A stretch of 64,000 nucleotides of DNA from Utricularia gibba (Eukaryota > Streptophyta > Magnoliopsida > Lamiales > Lentibulariaceae). Positions 10,654 to 14,604 of the stretch are shown here, in pieces (positions within the stretch are counted from its first letter, which is position 1; the number at the start of each line of letters is the position of its first letter). Under the pieces are notes generated by a model. The model saw only the letters and a list, made by a program, of their open reading frames with translations. It had not been told where the DNA came from and did not search any database. The position numbers and the translations under genes were made by a program. Location: NCBI GenBank assembly GCA_002189035.1, contig NEEC01000002.1:1-64000 (forward strand), written 5' to 3'.

Positions 10654-13600
10654 ATGGCTACTCCAGGGGGGAGAAGCGACGATCCGAGTTCCCAACAGAT
10701 GGCTGCCTCCGGGAGCAGAAATGATGACAACATCAATTCGCAAGCTGCTTCGCATCGAGCAGCGCGGTATTCCTCTGGGGCAACCAGTTCCACGTTAAAC
10801 AGAGGCGAGTCTACTAGCATGGCTATCGCGCAGTTCAGTGCAGATGCCAGGCTTCACGCCGTCTATGAGCAATCTGGTGAGTCCGGGGGGTCTTTTGATT
10901 ATTCCCAGACATTGATGACCTCCACAAGTCAATCCATTCCGGAGCAACAAATGACTGTCTACTTGTCCAAGATGCAGCGTGGTGGCCTTGTACAACCTTT
11001 TGGTTGCATGATACTCGTTGACGAAGCTAGTTTCAGGGTTATTGGTTACTCAGAAAATGCTCGAGAAATGCTCGGTTTGACTCCTCAGTCCGTCCCGACT
11101 CTTGAAAAATTTGAGATTTTGACAATTGGTACTGATGTTAGAATCCTTTTCAAACCTTCGAGCTCTGCTTTGCTCGAGAGGGCTTTTAGGGCTAGGGAAA
11201 TCACTCTGTTGAATCCTATTTGGGTCCACTCGAAGAGTTCTGGGAAACCCTTTTATGCAATTTTGCATCGGATAGATGTGGGAATTGTAATTGATTTGGA
11301 GCCTGCAAGGGCAGAGGACCCTGCTCTCTCAATTGCTGGTGCTGTCCAATCGCAGAAGCTTGCAGTGAGAGCCATTTCTCGTTTGCAGTCTCTTCCTGGT
11401 GGTGACATTGGCCTTTTATGCGACACAATTGTTCAAAGCGTTAGGGAGCTAACCGGGTACGACCGGGTTATGGTTTATAAGTTCCACGAGGATGAGCACG
11501 GCGAGGTTGTCTCTGAGAACAAGCGACCAGATTTAGAACCTTATCTTGGATTGCACTACCCCGCTACCGACATTCCGCAGGCTTCTAGGTTTTTGTTTAA
11601 GCAGAACAGAGCAAGGATGATCGTGGACTGTCACGCTACGCCTGTTAAGGTTATTCAGGATAGTGCATTGATGCAGCCCCTGTGTTTGGTTGGTTCCACT
11701 TTAAGGGCCCCTCATTGTTGCCACGCTCAGTACATGGCAAATATGGGCTCTATTGCGTCCCTTACACTGGCAGTTGTCACTAACGGAAATGATGAGGAAG
11801 GTGCTAAAAGAAGAGTTTCACAGAGGTTATGGGGCTTGGTTGTTGGTCACCATACGTCTGCCCGATACATCCCTTTTCCTCTTCGTTATGCTTGTGAATT
11901 CCTAATGCAGGCATTTGGTTTGCAACTGAACATGGAATTGCAGTTGGCAGCACAAGTAGCTGAAAAGCGTGTTCTGAAGACTCAAACGCTCTTGTGTGAT
12001 ATGTTGCTCCGAGATTCGCCAACTGGAATTGTTACACAAGACCCCAGTATCATGGACATTGTAAAATGTGATGGAGCCGCTTTGTACTACCAAGACAACT
12101 ATTATCTTCTAGGTGTTACACCTACTGAAGCTCAGATAAAAGATATTGTCGTATGGTTGTCAGAATTCCACGGTGGATCAACGGGGTTGAGTACTGATAG
12201 TTTAGCTGAGGCTGGGTATACAGGAGCAGCCTCCCTAGGAGATTCAGTTTGTGGATTGGCGGTTGCATATATCACAGCAAGGGATATTTTGTTCTGGTTC
12301 CGTTCCCACACCGCAAAAGAGATAAAATGGGGTGGCGCAAAGCATCATCCTCAAGATAAAGATGGCGGTCAGCATATGCATCCCCGTTCCTCATTCAAGG
12401 CATTTTTGGAAGTGGTCAAAAACAGGAGTTTGCCATGGGAAAATGCGGAGATGGATGCTATTCACTCATTGCAGTTAATTTTGAGAGATTCGTTTCGGGA
12501 TGCCTGGGGAAGTAACTCAAAGGCAGTTGTACAAAGCAAGGCCTTGGATTTGGATTTAAAGTTAAAGGGTAGGGATGAACTAAAGTCTGTTGCCAGAGAA
12601 ATGATCAGGTTGATTGAGACTGCCACAGCTCCTATATTCGCAGTAGATGTTGAAGGGCGCATAAATGGTTGGAACTCAAAAGTCGCCGAATTAACTGGAT
12701 TCCCTGTTGAAGAAGCGATAGGAAAGTCATTGGTTCATGATCTTGTTCACAAGGAGTCACAAGAAATTGCATATAAGCTTCTATTTCATGCATTGAGAGG
12801 TGGGAGTCTCCTAATTCGTCATTTACCTTTTCATTCTTCACAGCTTCTTTTAATCATAAACGGTCGATCCATTATTTCCATGGGAATCCAGTATCCTTTT
12901 TTTTTTTTGGTGCTTTTACCGTGAACTTAAAATTTTTTACTTGATTTACCCAGTGAAATAATTGATGTAGGTCAGGAAGATAAGAACGTAGAATTAAGAC
13001 TGAAGACAGTTGGCCCTGAACGAGACGGGGAAGTTGTTTTTGTTTTGGTCAATGCATGCACCAGCAAAGATTGCGCAAGCAATGTTGTTGGTGTCTGCTT
13101 TGTAGGTCAAGATGTTACCGCCGAGAAAGTGGTGATGGATAAGTTTATAAACATTCAAGGTGATTACAGGGCTATTTTGCACAGTCCGAGCCCTCTGATC
13201 CCTCCTATATTTGCATCAGATGAAAATACTTGCTGTTCTGAATGGAACACTGCAATGGAAAAGCTCACTGGATGGAATAGAGCAGAAGTGATGGGAAAAA
13301 TGTTGGTTGGGGAGATATTTGGCAGTTGTTGTCGGCTTAAGGGGCCCGATGCACTGACAAATTTCATGATTGTCTTACACAATGCAATGGGAGGGCAGGA
13401 TTCAGAGAGGATGCCGTTTTCTTTTTTTGACAGAAATGGGAAGTATGTGCAAGGGCTTCTGACAGCGAACCAGAGGTTGAATATGGGTGGCCAGATTACG
13501 GGAGCTTTTTGCTTCTTGCAGATTGCAAGCCCTGAGGTACAACTAGCACTTGAAATGCAGAGGCGGCAGGAGCAAAGGCATGTTTCAAAGATGAAGGAGC

Positions 13601-14604
13601 TGACCTACATTTGCCAGGAAATTAAAAACCCTTTAGGTGGTTTGTGTTTCACCAATTCATTATTGATGGCAACGAAATTGAATGAAGACCAAAAGCGTTT
13701 TCTTGAAACCAGCGCAGCCTGTGAAAAGCAGATTTTGAAGATTATGAAGGATGTTGATTTGGAAAGCATTGAGGATGGGTATGTCGTATCCTAGCCTAGT
13801 TTGAATGCTGGTTAAGATTTAATTATGGGAGGAGGTTTGTCAAACATGAATCATTTCTTTTTTTGATGTTTTGCACGTGTCCGCTGTGTATGTTTTTGCA
13901 CTAATATTGTGGGAGTTGGTAACATGTTGACAGTTCTTTGGAGCTGGAGATGGGGGAATTTGTACTTGGGAGTGTAATAGATGCGGTGGTTAGCCAAGTC
14001 ATGTTTGTGGCGCAAGAAAGAGGTGTGCAGCTGATACGTGAAATACCCAAGAGCATCAAGACGCTCGCTGTGTGTGGCGACCAAGTTAGAATCCAGCAAG
14101 TTGTGGCTGATTTTCTAGTGAACATGGCTCGTTTTTCGCCATCCCCTGGTGGTTGGGTGGAACTTCGACTTATTCCAACCTTCAGGGAAACACCGGGAGG
14201 AGGAAGCGCAGTCCACATGGAGCTGAGGTAGGTACAAGTTGAGGGTGTTTCATTATAGGCGGGCGCGGGGCGGGGGCGGGGCGGGGCAGCGAATCAATGG
14301 AATATGTGCTAGTTGTGCCTTGGTTTTACTTTTAATAGTTCCAATCGAATTTAATTGTGGGATTTGGTTTTGGCCGCGTGGAAGGATGGTGTGTCCAGGA
14401 GAAGGTCTGCCTCCTCAACTAGTACAAGACATGTTCCACGGGAGTCAAAGGGTAACGCAGGAAGGGCTTGGGCTAAGTATATGCCGAAAGATTTTGAAGC
14501 TAATGAAAGGAGAAGTTCAGTACATTAGAGAATCAGAAAGAAGTTATTTCATAATTACTCTTCCCCTTCCTCTTGCATGTTCAAGCCGGGAGCCCATCGT
14601 CTGA
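10654..14604 (+). CDS. PHYB: Phytochrome B photoreceptor
   Basis: Red/far-red photoreceptor that binds phytochromobilin in the cytosol and moves to the nucleus after light activation. Four exons (10654-12799, 12971-13778, 13934-14227, 14385-14604) give 3468 bases, 1155 residues, close to Arabidopsis PHYB. Order: a Gly/Ser/Asn-rich extension of about 90 residues typical of phyB, PAS domain, GAF domain with the DIP motif in [15 protein letters not shown] domain with HPRSSF, two PAS repeats ([14 protein letters not shown] in the second), then a histidine-kinase-related module from [10 protein letters not shown] to [15 protein letters not shown]. The chromophore cysteine is residue 356, but the normally invariant glycine before it is cysteine 355 (RAPHCCHAQ). 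A second change, Tyr for the usual Cys, occurs in [10 protein letters not shown]. The frame is otherwise intact. Intron 3 starts with a dense G-tract. Confidence 0.97.
14258..14286 (+). other. G-quadruplex-like tract in PHYB intron 3
   Basis: Runs of 4, 5, 4 and 4 guanines separated by single cytosines occupy 14267-14286, preceded by further short G runs. They lie on the sense strand about 30 bases after the intron 3 donor. The sequence fits the classical four-run quadruplex rule with one-base loops. Confidence 0.8.

Follow-up and report, generated by a model that had tools for sequence, protein, structure and literature searches.

The phytochrome B gene (PHYB) in the window, the 64,000-nucleotide stretch of Utricularia gibba DNA analysed here, carries two neighbouring cysteines at the chromophore attachment site, with the motif reading RAPHCCH (Cys355-Cys356). 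This tandem cysteine is real in the assembly, where base 11716 is T and positions 11716–11721 read TGT TGC in the reading frame that opens with ATG at 10654. The explanation that we favour, with a probability of about three in four, is that the gene encodes a functional red/far-red PHYB paralogue with a private G355C substitution, in which the bilin is carried by Cys356 and the effect of Cys355 is none or slight.

Gene model analysis revealed a complete PHYB copy at positions 10654–14604 of the window, with four exons, a product of 1155 amino acids, no internal stops, and three introns, all of the GT-AG type (Table 1). Its Pfam domains were PAS_2, GAF, PHY, two PAS, HisKA, and HATPase_c, which is the architecture of plant phytochrome B. 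Exon 1 showed 76% identity to Arabidopsis PHYB (AtPHYB), compared with 56% identity to the PHYA copies of the genome, placing the gene nearer phyB than phyA, and the closest solved structures were phyB from Arabidopsis and soybean. Judged by its architecture, its identity, and the chromophore cysteine in RAPHxCH, the gene is a plant PHYB, and the domain order and the identity to AtPHYB agree with the assignment made in an earlier note on this DNA. That note had also described a double cysteine in which Cys355 stands in place of a glycine directly before the chromophore-attaching Cys356, and the assembly confirmed each part of this description: the two codons lie in frame inside the complete gene, Cys356 aligns to AtPHYB C357, and the other PHYBs compared have glycine where this copy has Cys355. 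A G-quadruplex-like run (GGGCGCGGGGCGGGGGCGGGGCGGGG) was observed in intron 3, at positions 14261–14286 of the window.

Table 1. Features of the PHYB gene (positions in the window)
Feature	Position	Strand	Basis
Exon 1 (N-terminal extension, PAS, GAF, PHY, start of first PAS repeat)	10654..12799	+	Open frame; Pfam PAS_2, GAF, PHY
TGT, Cys355, at the position of AtPHYB G356	11716..11718	+	Paralogous PHYBs have GGT/GGC, both PHYAs AGC
TGC, Cys356, canonical chromophore cysteine, equivalent to AtPHYB C357	11719..11721	+	Aligned to solved phyB chains
TAC, Tyr405 of TSARYIPF, equivalent to AtPHYB C409	11866..11868	+	Tyr in 3/3 PHYB copies, Phe in both PHYAs
Exon 2 (PAS repeats, HisKA)	12971..13778	+	GT-AG intron, frame kept
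Exon 3	13934..14227	+	GT-AG intron, frame kept
Exon 4, end of HATPase_c, stop codon	14385..14604	+	Frame runs to TGA

A search of the assembly (100.09 Mb, 516 contigs) for the PHY domain gave exactly five matches, comprising three PHYB and two PHYA genes. The number of other PHYB copies, which the earlier note had proposed to count, is therefore two, located at C2:4.597 Mb and C451:0.534 Mb. PHYC and PHYE, which are usual in related plants, were not found in the assembly by this domain search. The two other PHYBs were separated from each other by a dS of approximately 0.40 and the two PHYAs by a dS of 0.41, while the window copy differed from both other PHYBs by a dS of approximately 1.0, indicating an earlier split. 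The U. gibba genome is approximately 100 Mb in size and has undergone two recent whole-genome duplications (PMC8333044). The window copy (C451:10654) and the copy at C451:534101 lie on one contig, approximately 523 kb apart; despite this shared contig, the more similar pair is formed by C451:534101 and the C2 copy. In the C2 copy (L006:3612-3652), the reading frame of exon 2 breaks by one base after GQDVT, reflecting either a genuine frameshift or an indel introduced by assembly at a G run. An HY2-type bilin reductase locus was present in the assembly, suggesting that the chromophore can probably be made.

Comparison of the residue before the chromophore cysteine revealed distinct patterns across phytochrome families. 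Both other PHYBs of the genome read RAPHGCH (codons GGT and GGC), and the solved phyBs of Arabidopsis, soybean, and sorghum also have glycine at this position. Both PHYAs of the genome read RAPHSCH (codon AGC), with serine likewise found in Arabidopsis and maize phyA, while Cph1 has histidine. Among nine bacterial phytochromes, all bacteriophytochromes without the GAF cysteine taken from a bacterial genome scan, the aligned residue was proline in eight and leucine in one. The glycine that the earlier note called near-invariant is thus typical of PHYB, where the description stands; across the superfamily the residue varies, with serine in phyA, histidine in Cph1, and proline in most bacteriophytochromes. 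Among the five PHYB and PHYA genes of the genome, Cys355 is private to the window copy. Glycine, shared by AtPHYB and both sister copies, is the ancestral state, and cysteine arose in the lineage of the window copy itself; a change from GGT to TGT takes a single base, G to T. Literature searches on the motif and on G356 in phyB returned nothing relevant.

The surroundings of the substitution were otherwise those of a conventional phyB. When 47 pocket and nearby positions were checked, the key bilin contacts were all kept, including (AtPHYB numbering) Y276, D307 of the DIP motif, R322, R352, H355, C357, H358, Y361, and H403, among others. Besides Cys355, the departures from AtPHYB were at A372, C402, S407, and C409, and all four were common to the sister copies. 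The predicted structure of the photosensory module matched solved phyB structures with TM-scores of approximately 0.8, and in it the Cys356-bearing helix begins with Cys355. Compared with the phyB structures of Arabidopsis and soybean (4our, 7rzw, 6tl4), the window PHYB has the same domain order, chromophore cysteine, and key pocket residues; it differs in having cysteine for the glycine before the chromophore cysteine, as well as glycine for C402 and tyrosine for C409, the latter two as in the other PHYBs of the genome. In the sister PHYBs (C2:4.597 Mb and C451:0.534 Mb), histidine replaces AtPHYB Y270 in a conserved stretch near the chromophore pocket, whereas the window copy keeps tyrosine.

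The earlier note had pointed to the tyrosine of TSARYIPF as a second unusual change in the same photosensory module. This tyrosine is real (residue 405), but it is not a companion of Cys355, a reading that we rejected on finding it in all three PHYB copies. The glycine of VVGHH (AtPHYB C402) was also found in all three PHYB copies, with cysteine in PHYA. Both residues, being common to all three PHYBs, were in place before the copies diverged, and neither is specially linked to Cys355.

Substitution patterns showed no sign of weakened selection on the window copy. In exon 1, dN/dS values between the window copy and the two other PHYBs were 0.116 and 0.108, and in the GAF domain the value against the paralogues was 0.094. 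Tajima counts with AtPHYB as the outgroup (window copy:sister) were 46:46 and 46:48 for exon 1, and 13:12 and 12:11 for the GAF domain only. At sites otherwise invariant among six PHYA and PHYB sequences, the window copy showed 15 changes and AtPHYB, which likewise stands alone on a long branch in this count, showed 14; the two sister PHYBs showed 1 and 3 such changes, each being shielded by the other. With a dN/dS of approximately 0.11 and rates equal to those of the sister copies, the window PHYB appears to be under normal purifying selection. The suggestion in the earlier note that Cys355 marks relaxed constraint was not upheld, given these values and the otherwise intact pocket. That the gene is decaying would be compatible with the redundancy offered by three PHYB copies, but the low dN/dS, the sister-equal rates, and the intact frame and splice sites argue against it, and we consider decay the least probable of the explanations weighed here.

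That the T at base 11716 is an assembly error was also weighed. The broken exon 2 frame of the C2 copy, which may be an assembly indel, could be taken to favour such an error; the window PHYB, however, keeps its frame over 1155 codons, and long-read errors are mostly indels. This open frame, together with approximately 46 further amino acid changes private to this lineage in the photosensory exon, makes a real substitution far likelier than a random error at this exact base. A DNA search of the assembly for a second allele or haplotig of the window PHYB found none, with only the other PHYB and PHYA loci matching. An error at this base is unlikely, with a chance that we put as very small.

The remaining explanations give Cys355 a function of its own. 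It may act as a working second cysteine, forming a reversible or partial second thioether (e.g., at C10) and yielding a violet- or blue-absorbing fraction, in the manner of dual-cysteine bilin photoreceptors. To our knowledge, second-cysteine photocycles have so far been associated with cyanobacteria and algae; algal examples of second-cysteine phytochromes exist, and the tandem-cysteine phytochromes reportedly have violet or blue dark states and belong to a separate cyanobacterial lineage. Tandem-cysteine phytochromes are on record from cyanobacteria (Song et al. 2020, cited in PMC12420706, which also notes violet-responding phytochromes). They provide a precedent for this idea and for the alternative thioether or spectral tuning raised in the earlier note. 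Cys355 likewise adjoins Cys356. A further precedent is the cyanobacteriochrome Tlr0924, whose blue-shifted state arises from a second thioether linkage to C10 of the bilin (PMC4067208), but its second cysteine sits in a separate DXCF motif. With tandem- and dual-cysteine photoreceptors the window PHYB shares a pair of adjacent cysteines where the bilin binds; for the tandem-cysteine phytochromes this likeness is judged by their name. Descent from the tandem-cysteine lineage was rejected: the gene is a plant PHYB, and because its two paralogues and AtPHYB all carry glycine, Cys355 is a private gain. No cyanobacterial tandem-cysteine sequence was present among the plasmid search matches listed. 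Like the window PHYB, the dual-cysteine cyanobacterial phytochrome FiDCB (9jry) adopts the phytochrome fold and carries the canonical GAF cysteine, but the residue before that cysteine is proline, so FiDCB is not a tandem-cysteine case. The DIP motif and the key red/far-red pocket residues of the window PHYB are unchanged, no other private change points to a functional shift, and nothing in the gene besides Cys355 suggests a second-cysteine photocycle. A working second cysteine thus seems quite improbable, and a shade less credible still is the fuller proposal of a land-plant phyB with an independently gained tandem cysteine, a second, light-labile bilin linkage, and an added blue or violet response. 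Alternatively, Cys355 may have a redox or regulatory role apart from bilin attachment, or may measurably change the ligation rate and thermal reversion. Its predicted position, adjoining the ligating residue at the start of the helix, is consistent with such a role, but adjacent cysteines rarely form a disulfide, and Cys356 is already occupied by the bilin. This role is doubtful, although we rate it above a second thioether.

A tolerated substitution in a functional phyB accommodates these observations best. Cys356 would hold the bilin by the A-ring, as usual, and Cys355 would contribute an uncharged side chain about as small as the serine found there in phyA. Photochemistry would be near-neutral, with at most a slightly altered assembly rate, spectrum, or thermal reversion. 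The plant phyAs compared (Arabidopsis, maize, and the two genome copies) likewise have a small non-glycine residue before the chromophore cysteine, although this residue is serine rather than cysteine and overall identity to the window PHYB is approximately 56%. The serine in PHYA of U. gibba, Arabidopsis, and maize shows that this position can accommodate a small side chain, and the histidine of Cph1 and the proline of bacteriophytochromes show even greater latitude. Against a mild effect, cysteine is chemically more reactive than serine, and the pKa of a thiol can drop at the start of a helix. If Cys355 is inert in bilin chemistry, the gene would be a natural example of a phyB that is subject to purifying selection and yet tolerates a cysteine beside the ligating one. 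If it instead joins that chemistry, the window PHYB would be a natural plant second-cysteine phytochrome and could inform efforts to tune light sensing in plants.
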